Shown here piece by piece: positions 2,641 through 19,881 of a DNA stretch of 39,725 bases. The notes beneath the pieces are model-generated. The model was not told where the DNA came from and did no database searches. It saw only the letters and a list, made by a program, of their open reading frames with translations. This DNA is from Cnuella takakiae. Lineage in GTDB: Bacteria > Bacteroidota > Bacteroidia > Chitinophagales > Chitinophagaceae. Position numbers and translations under genes: made by a program. Position 1 is the first letter of the stretch. Each line of letters begins with the position of its first letter. The stretch covers positions 1,592,961-1,632,685 of the forward strand of contig NZ_MTFE01000010.1 of assembly GCF_001953305.1 (NCBI RefSeq). The letters run 5' to 3'.

Positions 2641-2675
2641 AACCTAAGTTCCCCCTCTAGGGGGACAAGGGGGGT
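2641..2675 (-). repeat. C/G-tract palindromic repeat overlapping the end of queA
   Basis: This is the inverted copy of the element at 2505-2538. Read on the minus strand it has the same layout (ACCCCCC, TTGT, CCCCCT, AG, AGGGGG, AAC, TTAGGT). The queA stop codon TAG lies in its palindromic centre. Confidence 0.8.
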
Positions 2676-3889
2676 GTGCGGCTGAGCAAACTACTATCCC
2701 CATAACTCAAAAACCGGTACTCGTTGTCCAGCGCATGCCGGTACACTTTTTTCCACTCAGGGCCAACAAAGGCAGCAACCAGCAACAGCAAGGTGCTTTG
2801 TGGCTGGTGAAAATTGGTGACAATTGCAGATGCTGATTTAAATGTATAACCCGGTACAATGATCAGGCTGGTGCGGCAAAACAGCAGTTCCTGGTTTTTT
2901 TGTTCCAGATGTTGCAATAACGCCTGCAGGCTTTCTTTATAGGTAATGGTTTGCGCAGCCAGCTCATAACATTCCCACTGCACCAGTTCCAGTTCTTCTT
3001 CGTTGGAAAGGAATGCGCCATTGAGCAGTTTGATCCCAATCCAGTGCAGGCTTTCGAGCGTGCGCAACGAAGTGGTGCCCACAGCTACGATATTTTCTGA
3101 ATCAATAAGCTTGCGCAATGTATGCTGCGACACCTGGAAGTGCTCGGCATGCATAGGGTGCTCGCCGATGGTTTCCGACTTTACCGGTTTAAACGTACCC
3201 GCACCCACGTGCAGGGTAACAGGTGCCGTATGTATGTTTTTTGCGGCCAAAGCACTGAACACTTCATCGGTAAAGTGGAGTGCGGCCGTAGGCGCCGCCA
3301 CCGATCCTTCTTTATCTGCAAAAACAGTCTGGTAGCGGGTACTGTCTTCTGTTTGCGCATCGCGCTTGATATATGGGGGTAACGGAATAGCGCCGGTTTG
3401 GTGCAGCACATCGGCAAAAGGCAGGTGCGCCGGCTGCCACGCAAAGCGGATCACAAAGTGATCCACTTCCTTCGACACATAAAAAGCCTGCAGGGTACCG
3501 CCGCCCGGTACCTCTTTTTCCAGTACCTGCCCGGGCTTCCACTTGGAGGCGCCACCCACCAGGCAGTTCCACGAGCACACACCACCACCCTGGAGCGCCA
3601 TTTCCATGCTGGTATTGTGCGGTTCGAGGCAAAAAATCTCGATTACACCGCCGGAAGGTTTGCGGAAAAGCACCCTTGCCTCGATCACTTTGGTGTTGTT
3701 GACCACCAAAGTGGTATTTGGTGGGAGTTGGCTGGGCAGCTGGTAAAAACGTTCATCGGAAATCCTCCCACTTTTATACACCAAAAGCTTCGAATCATCC
3801 CTTTTAGGCAGCGGAAAGGCTGCAATTCGTTCGTTGGGAAGTTCGTAAGTGTAGTCGGCAATCTTTATTTCCTGTGGTTTTTGTTTCAT
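2657..3889 (-). CDS. queA: S-adenosylmethionine:tRNA ribosyltransferase-isomerase
   Basis: A QueA-family enzyme of 410 residues from the preferred ATG at 3889 (MKQKPQEIKIADYTYELP). It transfers the ribosyl part of S-adenosylmethionine to 7-aminomethyl-7-deazaguanine at position 34 of tRNAs, giving epoxyqueuosine. Family features seen: the N-terminal YELPNERIA segment, LPPNTTLVVNNTKVI, GAIPLPPYIKR, the DSTRYQTVFA segment, HVGAGTFKPV, HAEHFQVS, GTTSLRTLES, and the C-terminal NFHQPQSTLLLLVAAF. An upstream in-frame start at 3922 would add 11 residues but is not needed by the family alignment. The last residues (RTPPLSP) and the stop are supplied by a repeat. It is divergent from the dcw cluster, across a DnaA-box-rich spacer. 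Confidence 0.95.
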   Translation of the reverse strand: MKQKPQEIKIADYTYELPNERIAAFPLPKRDDSKLLVYKSGRISDERFYQLPSQLPPNTTLVVNNTKVIEARVLFRKPSGGVIEIFCLEPHNTSMEMALQGGGVCSWNCLVGGASKWKPGQVLEKEVPGGGTLQAFYVSKEVDHFVIRFAWQPAHLPFADVLHQTGAIPLPPYIKRDAQTEDSTRYQTVFADKEGSVAAPTAALHFTDEVFSALAAKNIHTAPVTLHVGAGTFKPVKSETIGEHPMHAEHFQVSQHTLRKLIDSENIVAVGTTSLRTLESLHWIGIKLLNGAFLSNEEELELVQWECYELAAQTITYKESLQALLQHLEQKNQELLFCRTSLIIVPGYTFKSASAIVTNFHQPQSTLLLLVAAFVGPEWKKVYRHALDNEYRFLSYGDSSLLSRTPPLSP

Positions 3890-3918: not shown

Positions 3919-3927
3919 GCAAACTTA
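3919..3927 (-). promoter_or_regulatory. Candidate -7 promoter element of queA
   Basis: On the minus strand TAAGTTTGC matches the Bacteroidota -7 consensus TAnnTTTG exactly and lies 29 bp before the queA ATG. No good TTTG -33 element stands at the usual distance. DnaA-box-like motifs lie immediately upstream. Confidence 0.4.
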
Positions 3928-3931
3928 TGAC

Positions 3932-4063
3932 TTGTCCACAACTTGTTCACGCAGATTGCGGTTTATCCACATCCTATTCACAATGTTTAATGAGTGTTAA
4001 TCATTATAAGTTCCTAAAACCCTTACCCAGCAAGGGATAGGGGCAATTGCCTGTTGTGGATAA
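3932..4063. promoter_or_regulatory. Cluster of five DnaA-box-like 9-mers (candidate oriC or DnaA operator)
   Basis: Two 9-mers match the TTATCCACA consensus exactly: 3963-3971 on + and 4055-4063 on -. TTGTCCACA (3932-3940) and CTATTCACA (3974-3982) differ by one base, and TTGTTCACG (3943-3951) by two. The four plus-strand boxes form two pairs, each with an 11-bp start-to-start step, the pairs being 31 bp apart. An AT-rich stretch (3983-4020) lies between them and the inverted box. The arrangement resembles a small replication origin; a DnaA-responsive promoter for queA or mraZ is the alternative. Confidence 0.55.
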
Positions 4064-4088
4064 AAACAGAAATTTTGATCCCGCAGTG

Positions 4089-4115
4089 AGAGTGGGAAAT
4101 TGTGTTATTTTGTGT
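4089..4115 (+). promoter_or_regulatory. Candidate MraZ operator (three 10-bp-spaced boxes)
   Basis: Three 7-mers AGAGTGG, ATTGTGT and TTTGTGT, each separated by 3 nt, put GTG at 4092, 4102 and 4112. MraZ is known to bind direct repeats of this kind with a 10-bp period upstream of its own gene (TGGGN repeats in Escherichia coli, AAAGTGK-n3 in Mollicutes). The boxes end 34 bp before the mraZ ATG, suggesting autoregulation of the cluster. Confidence 0.5.
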
Positions 4116-4149
4116 CACTCTTGAGCGATTTCCTCCCGAGTTTTATGGA

Positions 4150-4605
4150 ATGACAGGTTTTTTAGGAGAATTTGAAGCAACACTGGACTCCAAAGGTCGC
4201 TTTCTGTTCCCGGCAGGCTTTAAAAAGCAACTGACGGAAACCGAAAACGTACGCTTTGTAGTAAACCGTGGCTTCGAAAAATGCCTGAGCCTGTATACCA
4301 TGGAAAGCTGGGAGCCGCTGTTTGCCCGCATCAAAACACTCAACGACTTTGATCCCAAAGTTCGGGAGTTCCGCCGCTTCTTCCTCAACGGGGCCACAAT
4401 TGTGGAGCCCGATGCTGCCGGCCGCATTTTGCTGCCTGCCAACCTGAAGGAATACGCTGGTCTGGAAAAAGATATTGTGCTGGCATCGGCGGTGGACAAG
4501 ATCGAGATCTGGGCTAAAGACAAGTACCAGCAGTTCTTTGATAACTACGCTGCCGACGACTTCAGCGCACTGGCTTCTTCGGTGATGACCAATAATGAAG
4601 GATAA
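4150..4605 (+). CDS. mraZ: Transcriptional regulator MraZ
   Basis: A 151-residue MraZ from the ATG at 4150 (MTGFLGEFEATLDSKGRFLFP). An upstream in-frame TTG at 4102 would add 16 residues lacking family resemblance. The protein has the two tandem SpoVT/AbrB-like half-domains of the family: the first with EATLDSKGRFLFPA, the second with VEPDAAGRILLPANL, the two DxxGR-type signatures that form the DNA-binding and ring interface. MraZ rings bind direct repeats upstream of their own operon and adjust dcw expression; such repeats are seen at 4089-4115. It is the first gene of the cluster, and its TAA stop shares one base with the rsmH ATG, indicating translational coupling. Confidence 0.96.
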   Translation: MTGFLGEFEATLDSKGRFLFPAGFKKQLTETENVRFVVNRGFEKCLSLYTMESWEPLFARIKTLNDFDPKVREFRRFFLNGATIVEPDAAGRILLPANLKEYAGLEKDIVLASAVDKIEIWAKDKYQQFFDNYAADDFSALASSVMTNNEG

Positions 4606-5561
4606 TGGGAAAGAAGGATAAGCCTGAAGGTAAAGTTGGGGTTGAAGCGCAGGAAGAGGCGGGATACCATGTGCCGGTGCTCCTCCACGAAACCATCGGA
4701 GGTTTGGCCATCAAACCCGGTGGGGTGTATGTGGACTGTACGTTTGGCGGTGGTGGCCATAGCCGGGAGATTTTGAAGCAACTGGGTCCAGAGGGCACGC
4801 TGATCGCTTTCGACCAGGATGAAGATGCGCAGCGCAACCTGCCCGATGACAGCCGGGTGTTGTTTGTGCCGCACAACTTCAGGCACCTGAAGCGCTTCCT
4901 GAAGCTGCACGGCTTTCCGGAAGTAGATGGCGTGATGGCTGACCTGGGTGTTAGCTCGCACCAGTTTGACGAAGCAAGGCGTGGTTTTTCCACCCGCTTC
5001 GATGCAGACCTGGATATGCGGATGGACAGGAGGCAGGAGCGTACTGCTTTTCATATCCTGAACACTTATGGAGAGGCCGAGTTGCACAAGCTTTTTGAAC
5101 AGTATGGCGAAGTGACCAATTCCAAAACCCTGGCACGTAAGATCGTTGAAGTGCGGGGATTGGGACCGATCAAAACCATTGCGGGTTTCAAAACATCCAT
5201 GCACCCCATTGTAAAAGGGAACCCGAACAAATATTTCGCACAGGTCTTCCAGGCCCTGCGCATTGAGGTGAACGATGAGTTGGGTGCGCTGAAGGATATG
5301 CTGGTACAAATACCGCAGGTGCTGAAAAGCGGAGGGAGAGCAGCCATCATCACCTTCCATTCTTTGGAAGACCGGTTGGTGAAAGTATTCTTCCGCGATG
5401 GTGATTTTGAGTTGGAGGAAGATGAAGTTTTTGGCGGTAAGAAAAGTGTAAGCGAGCTGGTGCTGGTAAATAGAAAGCCCATCACGGCAAGCGAAGAAGA
5501 GTTGCGCCGCAACAGCCGGTCGCGCAGTGCGAAGCTAAGGGTGGCGGAAAAGAAGGGATGA
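4605..5561 (+). CDS. rsmH: 16S rRNA (cytosine(1402)-N(4))-methyltransferase
   Basis: RsmH (MraW), 318 residues. It uses S-adenosylmethionine to methylate N4 of C1402 in the ribosomal P site. The protein starts with a short charged extension, then YHVPVLLHETIGGL. The SAM-binding loop VDCTFGGGGHS is at 43-53, followed by FDQDEDA. MADLGVSSHQFDEARRGFS and DMRMD are family signatures, and the C-terminus has QALRIEVNDEL and ITFHSLEDRLVKVFF. It overlaps the mraZ stop by one base. After it comes a 159-bp repeat-filled spacer before the ftsL-like gene. A second-position rsmH is the standard dcw arrangement. Confidence 0.97.
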   Translation: MGKKDKPEGKVGVEAQEEAGYHVPVLLHETIGGLAIKPGGVYVDCTFGGGGHSREILKQLGPEGTLIAFDQDEDAQRNLPDDSRVLFVPHNFRHLKRFLKLHGFPEVDGVMADLGVSSHQFDEARRGFSTRFDADLDMRMDRRQERTAFHILNTYGEAELHKLFEQYGEVTNSKTLARKIVEVRGLGPIKTIAGFKTSMHPIVKGNPNKYFAQVFQALRIEVNDELGALKDMLVQIPQVLKSGGRAAIITFHSLEDRLVKVFFRDGDFELEEDEVFGGKKSVSELVLVNRKPITASEEELRRNSRSRSAKLRVAEKKG

Positions 5562-5568
5562 GAGAGGG

Positions 5569-5714
5569 GTGATTGGTGATTAGTGATTGGGTATTAGGAA
5601 TTGGGTATTAGGTATTGACCATCTACCATTCGCCATTCACGTTTGCCGTTTCACGTCTCACGAACAAACAACATTTAAAACGTACCCATGGGCCATGGTC
5701 CATGGTCCATAGTC
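5569..5714. repeat. Phrase-like dyad repeats between rsmH and ftsL
   Basis: Words such as GTGATTGG, TATTAGG, AATTGGGTATT, ACCATTCGCCATTCACG and TTTCACG are strung together (5569-5664). A second block (5688-5714) repeats CCATGGTCCATGG. The same words recur at 6053, 16811, 34263, 34471 and 39541. The second block is in frame with the ftsL-like gene and offers a false upstream start. Confidence 0.75.
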
Positions 5715-5720
5715 AATAAA

Positions 5721-6059
5721 ATGCAAGCACCAAAGCCTGAAAAAAAGGCGGCCTTTTACTGGAAACGGATGCTGAACTACCAGGGTGTGGTGCAGCAGAT
5801 TCCGTTTTTTTTATTTCTGGCCCTGCTGGCAGTGATCTATATCTATAATGGTCACCGCGCCGATAAAACGGAGCGGGCCATCAGTAAAACAACGAGGGAG
5901 TTGAAAGAGCTGCAGTTTGAATACAAAACCGTAAAAGGCGATGTGCTCTTCCGCAGCAAGCAAAGCGAACTGGTAAAGGCCGTTGAGCCCCTGGGTTTGA
6001 AAGAATTGACAGTGGCGCCTTCGGTGTTGGTGGATAGTGTAGGAGGAGGAGGTGATTAG
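5721..6059 (+). CDS. ftsL: FtsL-like cell division protein
   Basis: A 112-residue bitopic protein from the ATG at 5721 (MQAPKPEKKAAFYWKRML). The in-frame ATG at 5688 lies in a repeat and is rejected as start. There is a basic cytoplasmic N-terminus, one membrane helix at 27-43 (IPFFLFLALLAVIYIYN) and a periplasmic heptad-like helix at about 48-85. This is the FtsL topology and its place between rsmH and ftsI is the FtsL position; sequence conservation in this family is weak, so the call rests on size, topology and synteny. In the divisome, FtsL with FtsB and FtsQ recruits and activates FtsW-FtsI. The last codon and TAG stop come from the start of another repeat block. Confidence 0.85.
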   Translation: MQAPKPEKKAAFYWKRMLNYQGVVQQIPFFLFLALLAVIYIYNGHRADKTERAISKTTRELKELQFEYKTVKGDVLFRSKQSELVKAVEPLGLKELTVAPSVLVDSVGGGGD

Positions 6060-6125
6060 TGATTGGGTATTGAGTATTCACCATTCACCATTGACCATTC
6101 ACGTTTCACGATTGACGTTTCACGA
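6053..6125. repeat. Phrase-like repeat between ftsL and ftsI
   Basis: The block GTGATTAGTGATTGGGTATT is followed by tandem CACCATT/GACCATT and TTTCACG/ATTGACG words. It contains the ftsL stop codon and, in frame with ftsI, an open TTG-initiated extension from 6063 that is considered artefactual. Confidence 0.75.
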
Positions 6126-6140
6126 CAGAAAAGACAAAAA

Positions 6141-8249
6141 TTGGAAATCAAACGCGACATATTGTGGAGAGTGTACCTAAGCTTTATCGGCATTGGGGTA
6201 CTGAGCCTGATGGTGTTGGGTCGTGCGTTTTATATCCAGCAGGTACAGGGCGATTACTGGCGGGGCATGTCGGACAGCCTTCACCAGAAATTTGTGACCC
6301 TGGAAGCGGAGCGCGGAACCATTTATTCGGAAGACGGTCAGATGCTGTCTACCTCTATTCCTTATTTCGACATCTACATGGATTTCGGCGCCGAAGGGCT
6401 GCGTGATAAAAACGGCAAGCGTTTCCGCGAAAACGTGGACTCGCTTTCTTATCATCTTGCTGCGCTTTTTGCCGAAAAATCAGCAGCAGTGATCAAGAAA
6501 GAACTGCAACTGGCCTACAACCAAAAGAACCGCTACTACCTCATTCATAAAGGGCTCTCGTTTGACCAGTACAAAATGTTCCGCGAGTTTCCGCTGGTAC
6601 GTATGGGCCGCAACAGGAGCGGCATCATCGCCGAGGTAAAAACCAAAAGGCTTAATCCTTTTGGGTTGCTCGCCAAGCGAACCATTGGACTGGCAAGGGA
6701 AAATGCGCAGAACGTAGGCCTGGAAAGGACCTACGATACTTTGTTAAAAGGCACATCGGGTCACCGCCTGGTGCGCTTTATTGCCGGAGGCGCCGCCGTG
6801 CCGGTGGATGGCTACCAGATCGATCCTACCAATGGCAAGGATATCATCACCACCATTGATGTGAACATTCAGGACATTGCCGAGAACGCGTTGATGAAGA
6901 TGATGGTGGAAAGCGAGGCGCAGCACGGTACCTGCATTGTGATGGAAACCAAAACCGGTAAGATTAAGGCCATTGCCAACCTGGGCCGCACCGGCGAAGG
7001 GGTGTACGATGAAAACCTGAACTACGCACTGCAAACAACCGAGCCCGGTTCTACCATCAAGCTGGCCACGCTGCTGGCGGTATTGGATGGTGGTTATAGC
7101 AAGATCAATGATGCGGTGTCGGTCGGTTCGGCGGGCCGCGAGTTTGTAGGCGTGCGCAACATCACCGATGCCGAACGTTCGCCCAAACCCGTACTTACCG
7201 TTCGCGAAACATTTGCACACAGCTCCAATGTAGGTATGGCCAAACTGGCCCTCAAGGCATTTGGCGACAAACCCGACGAGTTCAAGCAATACCTCCAGAA
7301 ATTTCACCTCGATCGTAAAACCGGTGTAGGACTGGTGGGTGAAGAAGCGCCGCTTTTGCCCCGTTGGAAAAGAAACCGCGAAGGCCTGCATGCCATGCTC
7401 ACCATGGCCTTTGGTTATGCTATTGAAGTAAGCCCTTTGCAAACCCTGATGCTGTACAATGCAGTAGCCAACAATGGCCGCATGATGCGTCCTTACCTGG
7501 TGAACACCATCAAGAGTGATGGCGTGGCCGTGCAGCACTACGAACCCGAAGTGATTGACGAAGCCATTTGCAAGCCCGCCACCATTGCCGCCGCCCGCAG
7601 CAGCATGGAAGCGGTAGTTACCGAAGGTACCGGCAAGCCTGCATTTAAGGATATGCCTTTTGCGGTTGCAGGTAAAACAGGTACCGCCCACGTTGCCGGT
7701 GGCAATGTCAAATATTATGATGGTGTGTACCAGGCATCTTTCGTGGGTTATTTCCCTGCCGAGGCACCTGAGTACAGCTGTATCGTTTTGGTAAAAACAC
7801 GTCCGCATGCGGCCCTCCACTATGGTGGCCAGCTGGCGGCTCCGGTGTTCCGCGAGGTGGCCACCAAGCTCTATGCATTGTATGTGCAAAAGAAAAAGGC
7901 AGTACCCGTACAGGTGCCCATCGATAGTTCGGTGCATGCCTTTGCCGGTTATGCGCCTGATGTGGCTACCGTGCTGCAGGGTACCGGGATGCGCTACCAC
8001 GATTCGGCTGGTAAGGCAGAATGGTACCGTGTGGTAAGTGCTGACAACAGGCCGGTATCGAAAGCAGTACCTGTAGAAAAAAGAAAAGTTCCCGATACGC
8101 GGAATATGACCTTGCGCGATGCGCTTTACCTCCTGGAAAACGAAGGGATGAAAGTAAAGGTAAAAGGCCGCGGTAAGGTAATGGCGCAGGATATTCCCGC
8201 AGGTTCGCCCGTGGTAAAGAACCAGGTAATCACACTTGTATTGAATTGA
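6141..8249 (+). CDS. ftsI: Penicillin-binding transpeptidase with PASTA domain (PBP3/FtsI)
   Basis: Septal class B PBP. The preferred start is the TTG at 6141, giving MEIKRDILWRVYL and 702 residues; the frame stays open to 6063, but those 26 residues are translated repeat. A single membrane helix lies at about 11-27, followed by the non-catalytic PBP dimer domain (GTIYSEDGQMLSTS near 60) and the transpeptidase domain. Catalytic motifs are S304-T-I-K307, S361-S-N363 and K512-T-G514. A PASTA domain fills about 650-702, as in Bacteroidota and SpoVD-type enzymes. The enzyme crosslinks septal peptidoglycan together with FtsW and is a beta-lactam target. murE begins one base after its stop, so they are co-translated. 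Confidence 0.95.
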   Translation: MEIKRDILWRVYLSFIGIGVLSLMVLGRAFYIQQVQGDYWRGMSDSLHQKFVTLEAERGTIYSEDGQMLSTSIPYFDIYMDFGAEGLRDKNGKRFRENVDSLSYHLAALFAEKSAAVIKKELQLAYNQKNRYYLIHKGLSFDQYKMFREFPLVRMGRNRSGIIAEVKTKRLNPFGLLAKRTIGLARENAQNVGLERTYDTLLKGTSGHRLVRFIAGGAAVPVDGYQIDPTNGKDIITTIDVNIQDIAENALMKMMVESEAQHGTCIVMETKTGKIKAIANLGRTGEGVYDENLNYALQTTEPGSTIKLATLLAVLDGGYSKINDAVSVGSAGREFVGVRNITDAERSPKPVLTVRETFAHSSNVGMAKLALKAFGDKPDEFKQYLQKFHLDRKTGVGLVGEEAPLLPRWKRNREGLHAMLTMAFGYAIEVSPLQTLMLYNAVANNGRMMRPYLVNTIKSDGVAVQHYEPEVIDEAICKPATIAAARSSMEAVVTEGTGKPAFKDMPFAVAGKTGTAHVAGGNVKYYDGVYQASFVGYFPAEAPEYSCIVLVKTRPHAALHYGGQLAAPVFREVATKLYALYVQKKKAVPVQVPIDSSVHAFAGYAPDVATVLQGTGMRYHDSAGKAEWYRVVSADNRPVSKAVPVEKRKVPDTRNMTLRDALYLLENEGMKVKVKGRGKVMAQDIPAGSPVVKNQVITLVLN

Positions 8250-8250
8250 T

Positions 8251-9717
8251 TTGAAACAGCTGCAAGAAATATTATATAAGGTAAGCCTCACTGCAGTTGC
8301 AGGGGATACTGCTATCGATGTATCCGGTGTGCAGATCGATTCGCGTGCTGTGCAGCAAGGCTCGCTTTTTATTGCGATTAAAGGTGTGGGTGTAGATGGC
8401 CACCAGTTCATAGGTAAGGCTATTGAAAAGGGTGCAGTTGCAGTTTTGTGTGAAGATATGCCTGCCGAAAAGCAGGAGGGTATCACCTATGTGCAGGTGC
8501 GCAGCACTTCCGAGGCTGCGGGCCAGGTTGCCCATAATTTTTATGATGCGCCTTCTGCACGTTTCAGCCTGGTAGGTGTTACCGGCACCAATGGTAAAAC
8601 AACCATTGCCACTCTTTTATACAAACTGTTTACTGGCCTGGGTTATACCTGCGGCCTGGTGAGCACCGTTGAAAATATCATTGCCGGTAATGTGGTGCCT
8701 TCCACACACACCACGCCTGATGCGGTTCGCCTCAATGCCCTGCTGAAGCAAATGGCGGATGCAGGTTGCAGCCATGTGTTTATGGAAGTAAGCTCGCATG
8801 CCGTGCACCAGCGCCGCATCGCAGGTTTGCATTTTGCTGGTGCGCTGTTCAGCAATATCACCCACGACCACCTCGACTATCACAAAACATTCGACGAATA
8901 CATCAGGGCCAAGAAAGGCTTCTTTGATGGGTTAACAAATAATGCCTTTGCCATCACCAATGCCGATGATAAACGCGGAATGGTGATGCTGCAAAATACG
9001 GTTGCCAAAACCTATACCTACAGCCTGCGTACCATGGCCGATTTCAAAGGAAAGATCCTTGAGAACAGCCTGAGCGGACTGATGATGACGGTAAACGACC
9101 AAGAAGTGCATTTCCGCCTGATTGGTGAGTTCAATGCGTACAATATCCTGGCGGTATATGGTGCAGCCATCTCCCTGGGTGAGGACAAGCAGGAAGTACT
9201 GCAGGTGCTGAGTGCACTCACCAGTGCCGAAGGCCGGTTCGATTACCTCGTTTCGCACAATGAAGGTGTAATTGGTATTGTGGATTATGCGCACACACCT
9301 GATGCCTTGTTGAACGTATTGGCAACCATCAACAAACTGCGTACCGGCGAAGAGCAGGTGATTACCGTAGTGGGTTGTGGTGGCGACCGCGACAAAGCCA
9401 AACGTCCCATCATGGGCGAGGTGGCCTGCGAGCATAGCCATAAAGTCATTTTCACTTCCGATAACCCACGCAGTGAAGACCCTGCACAGATACTGGCCGA
9501 AATGGAAACGGGACTGAAAACGGCACAACGCCGCAAGTTCCTCTCCATTGCCGATCGCAAACAAGCTATCAAAACTGCGGTGAGCATGGCCGGCCCCAAG
9601 GATATTATCCTCATTGCCGGAAAAGGCCACGAGAAGTACCAGGAGATCAAAGGCGTGAAGCACCACTTTGATGATAAAGAGGTGTTGATGGAGGTGTTTA
9701 AAGAATTAGAGAAATAG
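8251..9717 (+). CDS. murE: UDP-MurNAc-tripeptide synthetase (meso-DAP adding)
   Basis: MurE ligase, 488 residues, starting with TTG one base after ftsI. It adds the third amino acid to UDP-MurNAc-L-Ala-D-Glu using ATP. Domains: N-terminal UDP-binding domain (VDSRAV-like QIDSRAVQQGSLFIA near 27-42), central ATPase with the P-loop TGTNGKTT (111-118) and the SSHA motif (EVSSHAV), and the C-terminal domain with D404-N-P-R407. DNPR is the known signature of meso-diaminopimelate specificity, so this organism should have a DAP-type peptidoglycan. The last part, IAGKGHEKYQ, is also typical. An 88-bp repeat spacer separates it from mraY. Confidence 0.96.
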   Translation: MKQLQEILYKVSLTAVAGDTAIDVSGVQIDSRAVQQGSLFIAIKGVGVDGHQFIGKAIEKGAVAVLCEDMPAEKQEGITYVQVRSTSEAAGQVAHNFYDAPSARFSLVGVTGTNGKTTIATLLYKLFTGLGYTCGLVSTVENIIAGNVVPSTHTTPDAVRLNALLKQMADAGCSHVFMEVSSHAVHQRRIAGLHFAGALFSNITHDHLDYHKTFDEYIRAKKGFFDGLTNNAFAITNADDKRGMVMLQNTVAKTYTYSLRTMADFKGKILENSLSGLMMTVNDQEVHFRLIGEFNAYNILAVYGAAISLGEDKQEVLQVLSALTSAEGRFDYLVSHNEGVIGIVDYAHTPDALLNVLATINKLRTGEEQVITVVGCGGDRDKAKRPIMGEVACEHSHKVIFTSDNPRSEDPAQILAEMETGLKTAQRRKFLSIADRKQAIKTAVSMAGPKDIILIAGKGHEKYQEIKGVKHHFDDKEVLMEVFKELEK

Positions 9718-9718
9718 C

Positions 9719-9788
9719 TTTTGGCTTTTAGCCTTTATCTGTTAGCTAGCCAACCGCCAACAGCTAAGGGCCAATAGCCATTACCCAA
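9719..9788. repeat. Inverted word repeat between murE and mraY
   Basis: TTGGCTTTTAGCC and CTGTTAGCT are mirrored by AACAGCTAA and GGCCAATAGCC, giving an imperfect hairpin. This is another family of spacer repeat, unlike those at the other junctions. Confidence 0.5.
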
Positions 9789-9805
9789 TAAAGACAAAGA
9801 GCTGA

Positions 9806-11083
9806 ATGTTATATCACTTATTTGAATGGTTACGCAACAATGGCACAAACTTCCCGGGTGTTGAGCTCTTTCGCTTCATCACCTTCCGGGTACTGATTGC
9901 GGTATTGTTGTCGCTGATCATTACTACCGTTTATGGCAAGCGCCTCATCAACTACCTGCGCAACAAGCAGGTGGGCGAGGGTGTGCGCGACCTGGGCCTT
10001 GCGGGCGAGCAGATGAAGAAGGGCACGCCAACCATGGGCGGTATCATCATCATCCTGGCGATCCTGATACCAACGCTGTTGCTGGCCAACCTCGAGAAGG
10101 TATACATACGCCTGATGATTGTAAGCACCATCTGGTTGGGTGTGATTGGTTTTATCGACGATTACCTGAAGCTGAAGGCAAAGCGGCTGGCACAACAGGC
10201 AGGGCAGGCATACAAAAAAACAGATGCCGATGGTTTGGCCGGTTGGTTCAAGATCCTAGGCCAGGTAGGCCTTGGTGTGATCATTGGTGCTACGCTTTAC
10301 TTCAACGATAATGTGACCATCTGGCGTGAGTTCCAGGGTGTGCCCAAGGCAGACAATGCGGACGTTTTCTCCCGCGAGGTAAATGGCCGCACCAAGTATT
10401 TTGTAGAAGCGAAAGACCCGGTAACTACCATTCCTTTTGTAAAGAACCACGAGTTCAACTACAGCAAGTTGCTGCCCGAAGCAGTGCGCCCTTATAGCTG
10501 GGTGCTGTTTATCGGTATTGTCATTTTTATCATCACGGCGGTTTCCAATGGCTCCAATATCACCGATGGTTTGGACGGGTTGGCAACCGGTACTTCGGCG
10601 CTGATTGGTGTTTGCCTGGGCATATTCGCCTATGCAAGTGGTAACCTGCTGCTGGCCGATTACCTCAATATCATGTACATACCCAACCTGGGTGAGCTGT
10701 CCATTTTTATTGGTGCCATGATCGGTGCTTGTGTGGGCTTCCTGTGGTACAACTCATTCCCGGCACAGGTATTCATGGGCGATACCGGTTCGCTCACGCT
10801 GGGTGGTATCATCGCGGCCCTGGCCATCATTGTACACAAGGAACTGCTCATTCCCATTTTCTGCGGGGTGTTCCTCGTAGAAAACCTGAGCGTGATGATG
10901 CAGGTGAGTTATTTCAAGTACACCAAGAAGAAATACGGTGAAGGCAGAAGGATTTTCTTAATGAGCCCGCTGCACCACCACTATCAAAAGAAAGGCTATC
11001 ACGAAGCGAAGATTGTAACGCGTTTCTGGATCGTAACCCTGCTCTGCGTAGTGTTTTCGATTGTAACGCTGAAGCTGAGATAA
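9806..11083 (+). CDS. mraY: Phospho-N-acetylmuramoyl-pentapeptide-transferase
   Basis: MraY, 425 residues, an integral membrane enzyme that joins phospho-MurNAc-pentapeptide to undecaprenyl phosphate, forming lipid I. Seen: [13 protein letters not shown] near 72-84, the paired aspartates in [42 protein letters not shown] and the His-rich [13 protein letters not shown] near the C-terminus. About ten hydrophobic helices are apparent. It is longer than proteobacterial MraY (about 360) because of an extra hydrophilic loop at roughly 165-226, which as far as I know is usual in Bacteroidota. It precedes murD with a repeat-containing gap of 103 bp. Confidence 0.96.
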
Positions 11084-11087
11084 GAGC

Positions 11088-11120
11088 GGCCCCTCCCCGG
11101 CCCTCCCCGGTGGGGAGGGA
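11088..11120. repeat. GC-rich palindromic repeat between mraY and murD
   Basis: CCCTCCCCGG is followed by TGGGGAGGGA, forming a compact hairpin just after the mraY stop. It belongs to the same family as copies at 11221, 14164 and 15299. Confidence 0.75.
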
Positions 11121-11186
11121 GCAAAGAAAGAGGCTGACTGTAAATAGATAGAAAAGGCAAACTGTACCAAGGAAAACTAAACGTCA

Positions 11187-12605
11187 ATGATAAACCTGTC
11201 GCAACATAATTCGGGACTTGCCCCTACCTCCCCCTCCACCGGAGGGGGCCGGGGGGAGGCCGGTGGGGGGAGGACCTCTCTTGTTGTTCTAGGCGGAGGC
11301 GAGAGCGGCGTGGGTGCCGCCATCTTAGCCAAAAAGGAAGGCTATGATGTGGTGCTGATGGATGAAGGTTCTTTGAAAGCTGGTTATCGTAGCGAACTGG
11401 AAGCGGCAGGCATCGCGTTCCTTGAAGGTAGCATTGATGGTGAAAAACTGCTGGCAGCTGCTGAAGTGGTGAAAAGCCCGGGCATTCCGGAAAAGAATGA
11501 ATGGGTGAAAAAGATCAGGGCTAAAGGTATCCCGGTGATATCGGAGATCGAGCTGGCATACCGCCATAAAGGCGACAGCAGGATCATCGCCATTACAGGT
11601 TCCAATGGCAAGACCACCACCACTTCGCTGATCTATCATATCTGCAAAGTGGGCGAACTGGATTGTGCGCTGGTAGGCAATATCGGTTACTCTTTTGCCC
11701 GCCAGGTGGCCGAAGATCCCAAGCCCCTGTATGTGTGTGAGATCAGTTCTTTTCAGCTCGATGATATTTTAACGTTCCGCCCCGATGTGGCGGTGCTGCT
11801 CAATATCACCGAAGACCACCTGGATCGCTACAACTACCAGTTTGAAAACTATGCGGCAGCCAAGTTTCGCATCATGATGAACCAACTGCCAACGGATCAT
11901 TTTATTTATAACGAGGACGACGAAGTGATCGTGAATCACTTAAAACATAATTCAATTACAGCTAATCAACTACCGATTACCATGAAGAAGGAAGTAGCCA
12001 AGGGCGCACAGATCAAGGACAACGAGCTGCAGGTGAAAACCGGTAACGAGCCGCTTGAAATGAGCGTGTACGATTTTGCATTGAAAGGAAAACACAACCA
12101 GTACAACACAATGGCAGCATGTGTGGCGGGTTCTACCATGGACATCCGCAAAAACAAGATCCGCGAAGCGGTGCAAACATTCTCCAGCCTGGAGCATCGC
12201 ATGGAGCCCGTGCTCACCGTGCGGGGTGTTGATTTTATCAACGACTCCAAAGCTACCAATGTAAACAGCACCTGGTATGCACTGGAAAGCATGACCAAGC
12301 CTACCGTGCTCATCATGGGTGGTGTGGATAAAGGCAACGACTATTCGCTGATCATGGAGCTGATCCAGGAGAAGGTGAAAACCATCGTTTGCATGGGTAC
12401 CGATAACAGCAAGATTGAAGCGGCCTTCAAAGATGTGGTGCCCGTGGTAAGCACCGGCAACGCCGAAGATGCCGTGAAAGCTGCTTTTGCTGCCGCTGTT
12501 CCCGGTGATGCTGTGTTGATGAGCCCTGCCTGCGCTTCTTTCGACCTGTTTCGCAACTATGAAGACCGCGGAACCCAGTTCAAGAACGCTGTGAAAAATC
12601 TGTAA
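11187..12605 (+). CDS. murD: UDP-N-acetylmuramoylalanine--D-glutamate ligase
   Basis: MurD, 472 residues, adds D-glutamate to UDP-MurNAc-L-Ala with ATP. The conserved protein begins at SLVVLGGGESGVGAAI (about residue 31). Further motifs are KSPGIPEKN, the P-loop GSNGKTTTT (138-146), EISSFQLDD, NITEDHLDRY, HRMEPV and NDSKATN, then MGGVDKGNDY and the C-terminal SPACASFDLFRNYEDRG. There is no start codon between the ATG at 11187 and residue 31, so the first 30 residues must be translated. About 18 of them (roughly 12-29, Gly/Pro/Arg-rich) come from a GC-rich palindromic repeat. This N-terminal insertion in an essential enzyme is the gene's main oddity. Confidence 0.95.
   Translation: MINLSQHNSGLAPTSPSTGGGRGEAGGGRTSLVVLGGGESGVGAAILAKKEGYDVVLMDEGSLKAGYRSELEAAGIAFLEGSIDGEKLLAAAEVVKSPGIPEKNEWVKKIRAKGIPVISEIELAYRHKGDSRIIAITGSNGKTTTTSLIYHICKVGELDCALVGNIGYSFARQVAEDPKPLYVCEISSFQLDDILTFRPDVAVLLNITEDHLDRYNYQFENYAAAKFRIMMNQLPTDHFIYNEDDEVIVNHLKHNSITANQLPITMKKEVAKGAQIKDNELQVKTGNEPLEMSVYDFALKGKHNQYNTMAACVAGSTMDIRKNKIREAVQTFSSLEHRMEPVLTVRGVDFINDSKATNVNSTWYALESMTKPTVLIMGGVDKGNDYSLIMELIQEKVKTIVCMGTDNSKIEAAFKDVVPVVSTGNAEDAVKAAFAAAVPGDAVLMSPACASFDLFRNYEDRGTQFKNAVKNL
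11221..11273. repeat. GC-rich palindromic repeat inside murD
   Basis: The unit CCTCCCCCTCCACCGGAGGG is followed by GCCGGGGGGAGGCCGG and GTGGGGGGAGG, an extended version of the family. It lies within the reading frame and encodes the peptide SPSTGGGRGEAGGGR. Confidence 0.8.
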
Positions 12606-12612
12606 TTGAGTT

Positions 12613-12693
12613 AGGAACCACGGAGCCACATGCGACACATTGGAACACAGATTAACTGTGTAACTCCGTGTTCCTCTGTGACTCCGTGGTTCA
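12613..12693. repeat. Nested inverted repeat between murD and ftsW
   Basis: GAACCACGGAG (12615-12625) pairs with CTCCGTGGTTC (12682-12692). Inside it GGAACAC pairs with GTGTTCC, and CACAG-ATTAA-CTGTG forms the tip. The result is a long cruciform-like hairpin ending 18 bp before the ftsW start. Confidence 0.7.
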
Positions 12694-12710
12694 AAAGATA
12701 AGCCACCGCT

Positions 12711-14117
12711 ATGGACGAATTGTTGAACATACCCACATCGCTGAAGGGATTGAAGCATAGGCCACATGGTGACAAGACCATCTGGGGCTTGGTGCTGTTG
12801 CTGGGATTGGTATCGTTGCTGGTAGTGTACAGTGCTACGGGTTCGCTTGCGTACAAGATGTACAAGGGCAATACCGAAGTGTACCTGTTCAAGCAGTTTG
12901 CCTTCATCATTATTGGTTTCCTGGTGATCTATTTCGCCCACCGGGTAAACTATACCATCTATTCCAAGATCGCCAAGGTGATCTTCCTGTTGTCTATTCC
13001 CTTGTTATTGTATACCCTTTTCTTCGGGGTGACACTCAACGAGGGTAGCCGCTGGATCAAGCTGCCGATCATCAACTTGACCATGCAGACTTCTGACCTG
13101 GCCAAGCTGGGACTGTTTATGTACCTGGCCCGTTTGCTCAGTAAGAAGCAGAAAAACATCAAGGATTTTAAAAAAGGTTTTATACCGGTGATGCTGCCTG
13201 TGGCGGCTACCTGTTTGTTGATTGCGCCCGCCAACCTGTCAACCGCATTGTTGCTTGGTTCCAGTTGCATGGTGTTGCTCTTCATTGGCCGTGTGGCAAC
13301 AAAGCACCTGCTGATGGTAATGGGCGCAGCGCTGGTTCCCATTATTGCCCTGGTAATGGCTGCGGTTATCAGCCACAAGACTGCCAGCGATGTAGAAGAG
13401 GAAGTGGTTGCTAAAAAAGAAGAGCGTAGTGCGCTTACCCGCCGGGTAAGTACCTGGGTGAGCCGCGTAGAGAACTTTATGTACGGCGACAAGGAAGCTG
13501 CCGATGATAACCTGTACCAGGTAAACCAGGCCAAAATCGCTATTGCCAAAGGCGGCTTCCTCGGCAAGGGGCCCGGCAACAGCGAGCAGCGCAATTTTTT
13601 GCCGCAGGCCTACAACGACTTTATCTATGCCATCATCATCGAGGAGTATGGTCTCCTGGGTGGTGCCTTCATCATATTCGTGTACATGGTATTTCTGTAC
13701 CGCAGCATACGCCTGTTCAAGCGATGCCCTTATGCATTTGGAGCCTTCCTGGCACTGGGACTTTCGTTTACGCTGGTGCTGCAGGCTATGGCCAACATGG
13801 CGGTGAACGTAAACCTCTTCCCGGTAACGGGTGTAACCCTGCCGCTGGTAAGTATGGGGGGTAGTTCATTCCTGTTTACCTGTTTGTCCATCGGCATTAT
13901 CCTGAGTGTTGCCCGCAACGTGGAGCAACTGGAAGGTAAGGCCGCACTGGCCGAAGAGCGGGCCGCTTTAAAAGCAGCAAAAGCAGTGGAAGCGGGTGAA
14001 GATGCAGTAGATGCAGAACAGGAGGCAGTAGCAGTAGAAGCACTTAATGGTTTGAAGGGTAAAACCAACTCCGGTAAAAAGCTGGAACCCTTATCTGAAG
14101 ATTCACTGCCTTTCTAA
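12711..14117 (+). CDS. ftsW: Lipid II polymerase FtsW (SEDS family)
   Basis: FtsW, 468 residues, polytopic membrane glycosyltransferase that polymerises lipid II at the septum with FtsI. Family marks: VYSATGSLAYK after the first helix, NEGSRWIKLP, QTSDLAKLGLFMYLAR, FLGKGPGNSEQRNFLPQAYNDFIYAIIIEEYGLLGG, and NLFPVTGVTLPLVSMGGSS. A hydrophilic insertion rich in Lys/Glu (about 225-265) precedes the GKGPG loop. The C-terminal tail (about 400-468) is Ala/Glu-rich, cytoplasmic and low-complexity. The start is the ATG at 12711, behind a strong inverted repeat. murG follows after 11 bp. Confidence 0.96.
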   Translation: MDELLNIPTSLKGLKHRPHGDKTIWGLVLLLGLVSLLVVYSATGSLAYKMYKGNTEVYLFKQFAFIIIGFLVIYFAHRVNYTIYSKIAKVIFLLSIPLLLYTLFFGVTLNEGSRWIKLPIINLTMQTSDLAKLGLFMYLARLLSKKQKNIKDFKKGFIPVMLPVAATCLLIAPANLSTALLLGSSCMVLLFIGRVATKHLLMVMGAALVPIIALVMAAVISHKTASDVEEEVVAKKEERSALTRRVSTWVSRVENFMYGDKEAADDNLYQVNQAKIAIAKGGFLGKGPGNSEQRNFLPQAYNDFIYAIIIEEYGLLGGAFIIFVYMVFLYRSIRLFKRCPYAFGAFLALGLSFTLVLQAMANMAVNVNLFPVTGVTLPLVSMGGSSFLFTCLSIGIILSVARNVEQLEGKAALAEERAALKAAKAVEAGEDAVDAEQEAVAVEALNGLKGKTNSGKKLEPLSEDSLPF

Positions 14118-14128
14118 ATAAATAATTG

Positions 14129-15295
14129 ATGACGCAAGTAAATACCAATACAAGGAGTGCTACTTCCTCCCTCCCCACCGGGGAGGGCCGGGGGGAGGCT
14201 TTGCGCGTCATCATTGCCGGTGGTGGCACAGGTGGTCATATTTTTCCTGCCATTGCCATTGCCAATGCCCTCCAAAAACAATATCCCAACACGGAGATTT
14301 TGTTTGTTGGTGCGAAGGGAAAGATGGAGATGGAGAAGGTGCCGCAGGCCGGTTACCGCATCGAAGGATTGGATATTGCAGGCTTCAACAGGAGCGCTTT
14401 GTGGAAGAATATTTTGCTGCCGGTAAAATTGCTAAAAAGCTTTTGGCAGGTACGCGTAATTATACGCAAATTTGCGCCCCACTTGGTAGTAGGCGTGGGT
14501 GGTTATTCTACCTTTCCGGTACTGCGTTTTGCGCAGGCCAAAGGCATTCCCACCTTCATTCATGAGGCCAATTCTTTTGCCGGCAAATCCAATATGTTGC
14601 TGGCAAAAGGTGCAACCAAAGTGTACACCGGTACCGGTGGCATGGAACAATTTTTCCCTGCCGAAAAGATCATGGTCACCGGCAACCCGGTACGTACCAG
14701 CATCGCCAATGCAAGTATTGCAAAAGCCGATGCGCTGAAGTTCTTTGGATTCGATGCAAATAAAAAGACCATCCTGGTTGTTGGTGGAAGCCTTGGCGCC
14801 AAAGCCATCAACGAGGCGGTAGATAAGCACCTCGATACTTTGCTTGCCGAAGGGCTGCAACTGATCTGGCAAACGGGCAAGCCTTATGGTGCCCGCGGTA
14901 AAGAAAGAGCCGAAGGCAAAGCGAGTGTTTGGGTCAACGAATTCATCACGCAAATGGAGCAGGCTTATGCCGCCGCCGATGTGGTGATTTCAAGAGCCGG
15001 TGCCATGTCGGTAGCAGAGCTGTCGATGCTGGGTAAGCCAACGGTATTTGTGCCTTATCCTTTCGCCGCCGAAGATCACCAAACCGCCAATGCGCAGTAC
15101 CTGGTGCAAAAGGGCGCTGCACTGATGGTGAAGGATGGCGAGGCAATTGATAAAGTGGTGCCGCTGGCAATAAGCCTGGCAAAGGACGAGCAGCAGCAGG
15201 TGCAGCTGTCGCAAAACATAAAGAAAGAAGGCGTGCAGAACGCCGATGAGATAATTGCTGCTTCTATTTTGAAAGAAGTAGGAGTAGCTAAATAA
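14129..15295 (+). CDS. murG: UDP-GlcNAc:lipid I N-acetylglucosaminyltransferase
   Basis: MurG converts lipid I to lipid II on the inner membrane face. From the ATG at 14129 it has 388 residues. The conserved fold starts with LRVIIAGGGTGGHIFPAIAIANAL; the glycine loop GGGTGGH is at 31-37. Later motifs are GVGGYSTFPVLRFAQ, HEANSFAGKSN, GNPVRTSI, GGSLGAKAIN, SRAGAMSVAEL and PFAAEDHQTANA. Residues 12-23 (SSLPTGEGRGEA) are read from a GC-rich palindromic repeat. An in-frame TTG at 14201, placed 2 bases after GGGGGAGG in that repeat, could start the protein right at the conserved fold, so the start is not settled. A TTG just before the ATG (14126) is ignored. Confidence 0.95.
   Translation: MTQVNTNTRSATSSLPTGEGRGEALRVIIAGGGTGGHIFPAIAIANALQKQYPNTEILFVGAKGKMEMEKVPQAGYRIEGLDIAGFNRSALWKNILLPVKLLKSFWQVRVIIRKFAPHLVVGVGGYSTFPVLRFAQAKGIPTFIHEANSFAGKSNMLLAKGATKVYTGTGGMEQFFPAEKIMVTGNPVRTSIANASIAKADALKFFGFDANKKTILVVGGSLGAKAINEAVDKHLDTLLAEGLQLIWQTGKPYGARGKERAEGKASVWVNEFITQMEQAYAAADVVISRAGAMSVAELSMLGKPTVFVPYPFAAEDHQTANAQYLVQKGAALMVKDGEAIDKVVPLAISLAKDEQQQVQLSQNIKKEGVQNADEIIAASILKEVGVAK
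14164..14200. repeat. GC-rich palindromic repeat inside the 5' end of murG
   Basis: CCTCCCTCCCCACCGGGGAG is followed by GGCCGGGGGGAGGCT. It closely matches the repeat within murD and the one after murG, and is read in the frame giving SLPTGEGRGEA. Confidence 0.8.
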
Positions 15296-15298
15296 ACA

Positions 15299-15336
15299 GG
15301 GGCCTTCCAACCCCCTCCCCACCGGGGAGGGGCTCC
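15299..15336. repeat. GC-rich palindromic repeat between murG and murC
   Basis: CCCCCTCCCCACCGGGGAGG followed by GGCTCC, a member of the family at 11088, 11221 and 14164. Here it is intergenic and could also act as a hairpin after murG. Confidence 0.75.
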
Positions 15337-15371
15337 TAATCCAAACCTAAAAGGAAGACTAAAGGGTTAGC

Positions 15372-16808
15372 ATGGCGATACAGGAACATATCCAACTAGC
15401 GGTTGACAAGGCCAAGGCGGGCGGTGAAGTCTACTTCATCGGCATCGGCGGCATCGGCATGAGTGCCCTTGCCCGCTATTTCCATGCACGTGGGGCCAAG
15501 GTGAGCGGCTACGACAAGACGCCCACCGTGCTTACCCGCGAGCTGGAAGCCAGTGGTATTGCCATCCACTATACCGATGATCTGTCGCTGGCGCCACAGC
15601 ACCCCGACCTGGTGGTGTTTACACCCGCCATCCCCAAGGATCACACTGAACTCAATCATTTTTTGAACAATGGTTTTGTGGTAACCAAGCGCAGCGATGT
15701 GCTGGGTGCCCTCACCAATGGTTCCTTCAATATCTGCGTGGCCGGCACGCATGGCAAGACTACCATTTCTACGATGGTGGGTCATGTGCTCCGCCATACG
15801 GGCTTTGGCTGCAATGCATTTTTGGGTGGTATCTCCACCAACTACGGCACCAATTTCTGGAGCAGTGAAAACGATGTATGCGTAGTGGAGGCCGACGAGT
15901 ACGACCGCAGCTTCCTCAAGCTTTCACCCAATATTGCTGTTGTGTCGGCAATGGATGCCGATCACCTCGACATCTATGGCGATGAGAAAAGCCTGCAGGA
16001 CACTTTTGTGCTCTTTGCACAACAGGTGAAAGAAGATGGATTGCTGCTCCACAAATACGGCCTTGGCCGCATGAGCGAGGTAAAAGGCGTTGCTAAAATC
16101 AGCTACAGCCATTCCTACGACTATGCGCAGGCTTATGCCGCCAATGTGCAGATGCACCTCGGAGGTTACCAATTCGACGCGGTGCTGCCCGGCGGTACCA
16201 TTCCTGATGTGGAACTCCGTGTTGGCGGTATGCACAACGTGGAGAATGCCATGGCTGCCATTGCCATTGCAGCACACCTGGGCATTGAAGCCGATAAGAT
16301 CAGGGCAGCCATCAGGGATTTCAAAGGGGTGAAACGCCGCTTCGAATACCAACTGGCTCCCGAAGTGCAGGAAGCTGGCGCCTTTGTGCAGCCCGTGTTC
16401 ATCGATGATTATGCCCATCACCCCGAAGAGTTAAGGGCCTTGTTGAAAAGTGCTCGAGCTTTGTTTAAAGGACGCAAGATCACGGTGCTGTTTCAGCCCC
16501 ACCTGTTCACCCGCACCCGCGACTTTGCCGAGGGTTTTGGCGAAAGCCTTTCCCTTGCCGATGAAGTGGTGCTGCTGCCCATCTACCCGGCACGCGAGCT
16601 GCCGATCGATGGCGTGAACAGCGAAATGCTCCTGCAATACATCAGCCGCGACAACAAGCGCATTGTGGAGAAAAGTGAAGTAGTGAACTGGATGGCGCAA
16701 TACGCGCGAACCATCAACAAAGAATTTGGCGAAGTAATCATAACGGCAGGTGCCGGCGACATCGACACGCTGGTACAGCCGATTAAACAAGTATTGGAAA
16801 AAGCTTAA
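15372..16808 (+). CDS. murC: UDP-N-acetylmuramate--L-alanine ligase
   Basis: MurC, 478 residues, adds L-alanine to UDP-MurNAc, the first peptide step. The N-terminal Rossmann domain has VYFIGIGGIGMSALAR near 20-36, typical of MurC. The ATPase P-loop GTHGKTT is at 125-131; EADEYDRSFLKLSP and DADHLDIYG form the catalytic centre. C-terminal signatures are GVKRRFEY, FIDDYAHHPEE and FQPHLFTRTRDF, with PIYPARELPIDGV later. The ATG at 15372 follows the repeat spacer. Overall length is normal, and nothing is truncated. The murG-murC-ftsQ order is that of most dcw clusters, with murB and ddl absent. Confidence 0.97.
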   Translation: MAIQEHIQLAVDKAKAGGEVYFIGIGGIGMSALARYFHARGAKVSGYDKTPTVLTRELEASGIAIHYTDDLSLAPQHPDLVVFTPAIPKDHTELNHFLNNGFVVTKRSDVLGALTNGSFNICVAGTHGKTTISTMVGHVLRHTGFGCNAFLGGISTNYGTNFWSSENDVCVVEADEYDRSFLKLSPNIAVVSAMDADHLDIYGDEKSLQDTFVLFAQQVKEDGLLLHKYGLGRMSEVKGVAKISYSHSYDYAQAYAANVQMHLGGYQFDAVLPGGTIPDVELRVGGMHNVENAMAAIAIAAHLGIEADKIRAAIRDFKGVKRRFEYQLAPEVQEAGAFVQPVFIDDYAHHPEELRALLKSARALFKGRKITVLFQPHLFTRTRDFAEGFGESLSLADEVVLLPIYPARELPIDGVNSEMLLQYISRDNKRIVEKSEVVNWMAQYARTINKEFGEVIITAGAGDIDTLVQPIKQVLEKA

Positions 16809-16810
16809 CC

Positions 16811-16875
16811 GTGAATGGGCAATCGTGAATGGTGAATAAAACAACCATTGACGATTCACCATTCACCATTCATAA
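16811..16875. repeat. Inverted phrase repeat just upstream of ftsQ
   Basis: GTGAATGGTGAAT (16825-16837) pairs perfectly with ATTCACCATTCAC (16854-16866). The right arm ends 10 bp before the ftsQ ATG and would hide the ribosome binding region if the hairpin formed in mRNA. It also gives a false in-frame GTG start at 16829. Confidence 0.75.
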
Positions 16876-16876
16876 T

Positions 16877-18028: not shown

Positions 18029-18228
18029 GAAAAAAAGTTCCCTAAGCCCGGGTTGCAAGTTTGGGCAATGCATCCAACCCTTTGAAAAAGTAGAAAACAG
18101 CAGAACAATAGATCCGATGGAAATAGCGGTAAGACCTGAACAAGCTTACCTGCAGCCTGCGGATCAATCCAGACCCTTGAAAAACCGGAATCAAAACTGG
18201 TAACAAAAACAACTAAAAACAACGAACA

Positions 18229-19599: not shown

Positions 19600-19610
19600 G
19601 TCAGCAGCCG

Positions 19611-19799
19611 GTAGTTAAAAGTTCAGGGTAAGCACCGAACCGCTGTACGTTGAACCAATACCGGCAGAGAGAGGCCTTAGCAGTGTAGTGATAACTTCCA
19701 AGTTAAAAGTTCAAAGTTTTCAAACAGAAGCTTCTACCTTTTAACGAACAACTAAGTTCGCGTCAACCACCTTCGCAAACTGGTTTTGAACTTTTAACT
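19611..19799. repeat. Inverted repeat between ftsA and ftsZ
   Basis: AGTTAAAAGTTCAAA (19701-19715) pairs perfectly with TTTGAACTTTTAACT (19785-19799), enclosing 69 bp. A further partial copy AGTTAAAAGTTCA stands at 19613-19625. The spacer of 282 bp holds no supported gene and may carry an ftsZ promoter. Confidence 0.7.
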
Positions 19800-19881
19800 G
19801 CCAACTGTGAACTGAAAAGCCGCCATCGGAAACGAATTTTTGCAAACAACAGCACCCTGGTGCTGACAACTTATCCCAATC

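Follow-up and report, generated by a model that had tools for sequence, protein, structure and literature searches.

What does the dense set of DnaA-type boxes between queA and mraZ in Cnuella takakiae do? The original prediction proposed a chromosomal origin with forks leaving both ways or, failing that, a switch through which DnaA acts on the division genes. The window, by which we mean the whole analysed stretch of 39,725 nucleotides, corresponds to C1:1,592,961-1,632,685 of a 5.59-Mb contig. The divergent neighbour, queA, occupies 2657..3889 on the minus strand with its ATG at 3889, while mraZ (4147..4605, plus strand) is the first gene of the dcw cluster, the rest of which (rsmH, ftsL, ftsI, murE, mraY, murD, ftsW, murG, murC, ftsQ, ftsA and ftsZ) spans 4605..21903 on the same strand. 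The Mur ligase identities and ftsQ are presumed here from gene order; the ftsQ reading frame has no Pfam match and was placed by order. Rfam and tRNA scans of the window gave no hits. The window also encodes, at 24888-27809 on the minus strand, a 973-aa fused CheB-CheR-PAS protein near PAS/kinase-like reading frames.

In the spacer, four DnaA-type boxes form two pairs with 2 bp between the members of each, and an inverted TTATCCACA is also present. The first double box (TTGTCCACA-AC-TTGTTCACG, 3932..3951, plus strand) is composed of TTGTCCACA at 3932-3940 and TTGTTCACG at 3943-3951, and the second (TTATCCACA-TC-CTATTCACA, 3963..3982, plus strand) of an exact TTATCCACA at 3963-3971 and CTATTCACA at 3974-3982. 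The inverted box, also an exact TTATCCACA, is found at 4055..4063 on the minus strand, near the conserved position -94 from codon 2 of mraZ. All of the boxes originally described, two exact copies in opposite orientations and three near-matches (TTGTCCACA, TTGTTCACG and CTATTCACA, on the plus strand), were located, as were the 11-bp step inside both pairs and the 31-bp shift between them. Between the pairs lies a degenerate slot (3952..3962, plus strand) that keeps the register, and in Paracnuella aquatica this slot is a full TTATGCACA.

Single exact boxes are not rare, with 42 copies of TTATCCACA genome-wide compared to 38 for the reversed control pattern. Their distribution on contig C1 is uneven, with 29 on the arm from 0.605 to ~3.4 Mb (19 on the minus strand; the ~3.4-Mb limit is assumed) versus 12 on the other arm. 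The composite 20-mer TTRTCCACANNYTRTTCACR, in turn, is matched exactly at only two places in the 5.70-Mb genome, which are both in the spacer array, one of them being the first double box. There are no matches with one mismatch and six with two, and the total with up to three mismatches (46) is close to that of the reversed control (38). Within the window, 19 sites lie at most one mismatch from TTATCCACA, against a mean of 8.1 in shuffles, none of which (0/100) reached 19. The claim that such phasing exceeds chance is borne out by the uniqueness of the composite to the array, by the shortfall of the shuffles and by the recurrence of the phasing across the family.

This recurrence was examined in 51 loci recovered by a search for MraZ relatives, most of them labelled Chitinophagaceae, Chitinophagales, Niabella or unclassified Bacteroidota. 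After exclusion of L059, L060, L061 and L063 (other groups or no upstream sequence) and of L032 (98 bp upstream), 46 were usable; with the window they form a 47-locus set, used for the counts of neighbour genes, inverted repeats, core positions and MraZ repeats, and with L111 as well a 48-locus set. A common upstream plan is observed: ATNCAC cores pointing in one direction come first, next a zone with an inverted repeat and then an inverted box, after which GTGGGAAAAAGTGTTATTTTGTG-like DNA precedes the start codon. Across the 48 loci, the core pairs up to 45 bp apart are separated by 10 (23 pairs), 11 (37), 20-23 (36), 31-33 (14) or 43 bp (3) and by no other distance, and the opposite strand has no core pairs up to 45 bp. 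Chains of at least three cores occur in 23/48 loci and in none of 200 rounds of dinucleotide-preserving shuffling, a comparison that, like the simple base shuffles used for the inverted-box, inverted-repeat, second-sample, outside-family and MraZ-repeat counts, ignores kinship among the loci. The remaining 25 loci have fewer than three chained cores. In the window itself, the first pair reads GTNCAC, which limits the strict chain to two.

The position of the cores relative to mraZ is also conserved. Of 129 cores in the 47 loci, 117 fall between -210 and -160 from mraZ codon 2, with pile-ups at -204/-205, -193/-194, -183/-184 and -172/-173, that is, in steps of 11-10-11. On this scale, the boxes of the window are at about -216, -205, -185 and -174, with the degenerate slot at -195, and the second double box occupies the conserved slots of the family. 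The window boxes sit in the family register, and the 31-bp shift is therefore approximately three helical turns of one array. The core nearest to -183 is at -182 to -185 in 38/47 loci, a spread that is narrowed by choosing the nearest core, and at exactly -183 in 26/47, a pile-up that this choice does not affect. These are conserved DnaA-type boxes at a fixed distance from mraZ, in keeping with control of its promoter.

A second sample of 31 genomes drawn evenly from the family yielded another 28 loci, each from a different genus and including one from the window's own genus, although some may repeat species of the first set. Here, in-register cores occur in 15/28 loci (0.04 in shuffles) and at least three cores in 10/28 (0.0 in shuffles), with pair distances of 10, 11, 20-22, 30-32 and 41-43 bp. 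In the other 13 genera, no two strict cores are in register, so that the full array, though common in Chitinophagaceae, is not universal.

Closer to mraZ, an inverted box at most one mismatch from TTATCCACA is found in 41/48 loci (12 exact), compared with 0.11 expected from base shuffles, mostly at -93 to -96 from codon 2 with extremes of -83 and -106. The second sample gives 24/28 (9 exact; 0.37 in shuffles). The inverted box adjoins MraZ-type repeats, which in the window read GTGGG/GTGTT/GTGTC with a 10-bp step (4092..4116, plus strand) and are of a type comparable to that in PMC8475190. Such GTG-type direct repeats with a 10-bp step upstream of mraZ reach a score of at least 11 in 44/47 family loci (0.1 in shuffles). 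Overlapping them is a -7-like TTATTTTG (4105..4112, plus strand), a tentative promoter element of mraZ for which we see no clear -33 partner. On the other side of the spacer, a -7-like TAAGTTTG (3920..3927, minus strand), a tentative queA promoter element, lies next to the array, as had been pointed out, and 4 bp from its first box. Both calls presume the -7 consensus.

Between the array and the inverted box, the window has an imperfect inverted-repeat zone (4013..4040), weak here and better in some relatives, where it appears at roughly -135 to -108 from codon 2 in a form resembling GAAANCCTTT..AAAGGNTTTC. A terminator or hairpin at this place was considered and rejected, since a score of at least 8 is reached in 8/47 loci versus 2.1% of base shuffles, the window being weak, and by eye the 47 loci have no constant T-run at the zone.

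Outside the family, the two parts of this arrangement separate. From 57 order- and class-level loci, five without a start found were set aside and L111 was moved to the family set, leaving 51, of which 50 are outside the family. GTGG-type triplets with a 10-bp step score at least 12 in 39/51 of these (0.0 in shuffles), and the 45 bp upstream of the triplet contain a box at most one mismatch from TTATCCACA in 23/51 (7 exact; 0.95 in shuffles). In-register cores occur in only 1/51; beyond the family, then, the array is almost absent. Because the proximal DnaA-like box is found in 23 loci and the array in one, the box looks older than the array, or at least more widely spread. In L142, L144-L146, L151, L155 and L164, the site before the MraZ triplet is often TTTTCAACA, TTATCAACA or TTATTAACA, which are DnaA-box-like with 1-2 mismatches.

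Could the spacer be the origin itself? In favour of this idea, it holds a cluster of DnaA boxes, on both strands, together with an AT-rich stretch at 3983-4020. The reported count of 29 A or T in 38 bases is correct, but the richness is not conserved: the matching stretch averages 23.9 in 46 relatives, only one of which reaches 29, and by this count the spacer has no conserved AT-rich unwinding element. The argument from gene direction is weak, as all 13 genes pointing right belong to the dcw operon, from mraZ to ftsZ, and reading frames beyond it point in mixed directions. The GC skew, sampled in 40 stretches plus the window and noisy, gives a cumulative curve that is lowest at about 0.06-0.56 Mb rather than at the array, which lies inside the rising arm without a turn. 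Between ~0.6 and 2.9 Mb the majority of samples have positive skew, and past 3.0 Mb the majority are negative, though each arm contains exceptions; in the 0.96-1.66 Mb interval, most samples give +0.02 to +0.06, with values of about zero in the sample at 1.48 Mb and in the 4 kb directly left of the array.

Other markers of an origin region are also found elsewhere. A genome search for parS with at most one mismatch gave two sites at 621.2-621.3 kb, beside mnmG. The best DnaA-box cluster of the sampled DNA, with nine hits to the matrix described below, is at C1:604,920-605,224 (L071:6920-7224) in the gap between a SurA-like gene and the next reading frame, about 16 kb from the two parS sites and mnmG. 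This cluster, which is likely the true oriC of the genome, lies ~0.99 Mb from the spacer array, 1.09 Mb from dnaA (at 1.695 Mb) and 2.18 Mb from the single ParB_N gene found (at 2.787 Mb). Three Niabella genomes have similar clusters ~7-8 kb from parS. For Niabella defluvii, whose chromosome is complete, the coordinates are 1.996 Mb for parS, 1.989 Mb for the top box cluster and 1.80-1.98 Mb for the skew-curve minimum (20 sampled stretches), whereas mraZ is at 0.824 Mb, 1.16 Mb from the place equivalent to the predicted origin. With skew, parS, mnmG, box clusters and relatives all pointing away from the queA-mraZ spacer, we consider it very unlikely to be oriC. Of the two outcomes named beforehand as telling against the original prediction, a skew minimum elsewhere was found, and absence of the boxes from close relatives was not, the boxes being strongly conserved.

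A constant distance between oriC and mraZ was also considered and dropped: it is 0.99-1.20 Mb in Cnuella takakiae and the three Niabella, but parS and mraZ are 0.39, 0.59 and ~1.49 Mb apart in three other family genomes, the last value resting on one 1-mismatch parS site with an equal control count. No parS was found in 1/5 and 2/6 of the genomes searched in two rounds. Just upstream of dnaA (C1 ~1,694,450; L196), we observe an inverted pair, TTATACACC/TTATACACA, which suggests autoregulation.

Which protein, then, reads the array at mraZ? The array consensus is T/C-T/A-A-T-N-C-A-C-A. Among 34 arrays, pairwise identity is 0.83 in the cores, against values of 0.38 for box position 5 and 0.36 for the spacers, and this combination of conserved cores and a variable fifth position fits TTATNCACA, which we take to be the DnaA-box consensus with a free fifth base. 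Cnuella takakiae DnaA carries GGRDHTTV. A matrix of 110 sites from the mraZ arrays of relatives, with the window left out, was run over ~457 kb of Cnuella takakiae, ~262 kb of Niabella defluvii and, in three other genomes, 40 kb around parS plus the mraZ locus. Both this matrix and a model, R1, derive from 34 arrays and lean to the 11-10-11 register because those arrays were chosen for fitting it. In Cnuella takakiae, Niabella defluvii, N. pedocola and N. hibiscisoli, the top cluster is near parS and mraZ is second, while in Paraflavisolibacter, which has no strong box cluster within 20 kb of parS, mraZ is first. The predicted origin is consequently ranked first in 4/5 genomes, the same motif being present at the array and at the predicted origin; the rank of mraZ is not independent, as four of the five genomes contributed arrays to the matrix, but that of the origin cluster is. 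In a genome search with model R1, also built without the window and with 150 of 1784 first-look candidates scored, the window is the best site (E 0.003) and the next (E 0.19) lies ~1.9 kb upstream of dnaA. This second-best match is a TTTTCCACA-AG-TTATTCACC pair at C1:1,692,656-1,692,677 on the minus strand, upstream of two genes lying before dnaA and oriented like it, and at this E value it may be chance.

As the matrix from relatives' arrays finds the predicted origin first in four of five genomes, the reader of the array is very probably DnaA. The same result weighs against a target that is merely DnaA-like and is read by another protein, such as MraZ or an unknown regulator. For such a protein, one can cite that MraZ also binds short phased GTG repeats, according to PMC8475190, and that the cores in reverse complement are GTGRAT-like; however, the consensus matches TTATNCACA down to the free fifth base, and MraZ would not be expected at the predicted origin, which makes this explanation improbable. 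A random cluster of DnaA-like words, to which the abundance of single exact boxes might point, is contradicted by the family-wide conservation of cores, phasing and position, and we give it practically no weight. That the array mainly regulates the divergent queA would suit the closeness of the first box to the queA -7-like element and the identity of the neighbour, which by motif is queA in 28 of the 47 loci. But a DUF3052-like gene takes this place in 12 (seven are unassigned), and the neighbour's start codon varies from -195 to -790 from mraZ codon 2. Since the distance to mraZ is fixed while the neighbour changes, we rejected an element of queA only, and main control of queA retains a very small probability, although the outer boxes in the window's genus may act also on queA.

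A further alternative is a site like datA or DARS, at which the array would titrate DnaA or alter its nucleotide state and control initiation remotely, its place at mraZ being secondary. The array is indeed dense in DnaA-type boxes, lies a long way from the predicted origin and ranks second only to it in the sampled DNA, and E. coli datA/DARS are likewise box clusters off the origin (PMC12371093). Unlike those sites, the array, known here from sequence, is fixed to a division promoter. The fixed spacing to the mraZ start in 38/47 loci and the MraZ-type repeats fit promoter control better, and the parS-mraZ distance is not constant in the family, ranging between 0.39 and 1.49 Mb across genomes. 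A datA/DARS-like role is hence unlikely. We favour, with reasonable though not full confidence, the reading that 3932-4063 is a region through which DnaA controls the mraZ/dcw promoter, and not an origin. The original suggestion of a DnaA switch at the division genes stands as far as an array fixed to mraZ across the family and a motif shared with the predicted origin can carry it; the binding and regulation that it implies we infer.

In such a control region, DnaA would bind the same-direction, helically phased boxes as a cooperative, oriC-like oligomer, on two 2-bp-gap double boxes in the window and on slots at steps 11-10-11 typically in the family, and would also occupy the inverted box, which neighbours the MraZ repeats. 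This oligomer would then touch or loop to the promoter and change transcription of mraZ-rsmH-ftsL-ftsI and the genes behind, in a response set by how much DnaA there is or by its ATP state; MraZ, for its part, would repress its own promoter through GTGKN repeats overlapping it. Because the boxes are upstream of the promoter and the MraZ repeats overlap it, we lean slightly towards activation as the effect of DnaA.

When compared to known systems, the array has close counterparts in E. coli. There, DnaA favours pairs of boxes separated by 2 or 3 bp, one more bp greatly lowering binding (PMC11317965), and oriC has two arrays of four low-affinity DnaA sites 2 bp apart (PMC6727663). Both window pairs, with their 2-bp gaps, are within this 2-3 bp rule (PMC11317965). 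Our array resembles the oriC arrays (PMC6727663) and the double DnaA box (PMC11317965) in its same-direction boxes, 2-bp gaps and at most four or five boxes per array, but it is located at a promoter away from the predicted origin, and in most family loci a 1-bp gap gives a middle step of 10 bp, outside the 2-3 bp gaps described for the double box (PMC11317965).

At division genes, what the sources report is mixed. In Bacillus subtilis, DnaA is bound in vivo at the ftsL promoter region, and RsmH and PbpB, products of the ftsL operon, were unchanged on replication arrest in a 2024 study, while E. coli boxes upstream of ftsZ have no part in ftsZ transcription (PMC8203912, PMC11019786); the last two findings count against our reading. 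The likeness to ftsL lies in DnaA at the promoter region of a division operon, one that includes RsmH and PbpB; the differences are that DnaA was bound in vivo there and is predicted to bind here, and that the multi-box phased array here is linked to mraZ across a family belonging to a different phylum (PMC8203912, PMC11019786). As in the dcw promoter with MraZ boxes, short G-rich direct repeats with a 10-bp step lie upstream of mraZ, but our loci carry, further upstream, an additional set of DnaA-type sites (PMC8475190). Among the matches listed in the open literature (titles and starts of abstracts), none concerns regulation of mraZ by DnaA in Bacteroidota. That DnaA can control promoters is known in general, but the conserved array architecture at mraZ is not found in the literature searched.

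The presence of a phased array common to many relatives suggests that the start of replication is wired to the expression of division genes in these bacteria. More tentatively, and with somewhat less than even confidence, we propose that in Chitinophagaceae, and in simpler form across Bacteroidia, a DnaA oligomer at the mraZ promoter times dcw transcription to initiation, against autorepression by MraZ. How replication and division are coupled in bacteria is an old open question. If the proposal is true, it would provide a direct transcriptional link between replication and cytokinesis that is conserved over a large clade, and the conserved phased array before the division cluster would offer a defined, mutable target for that link in Bacteroidota.
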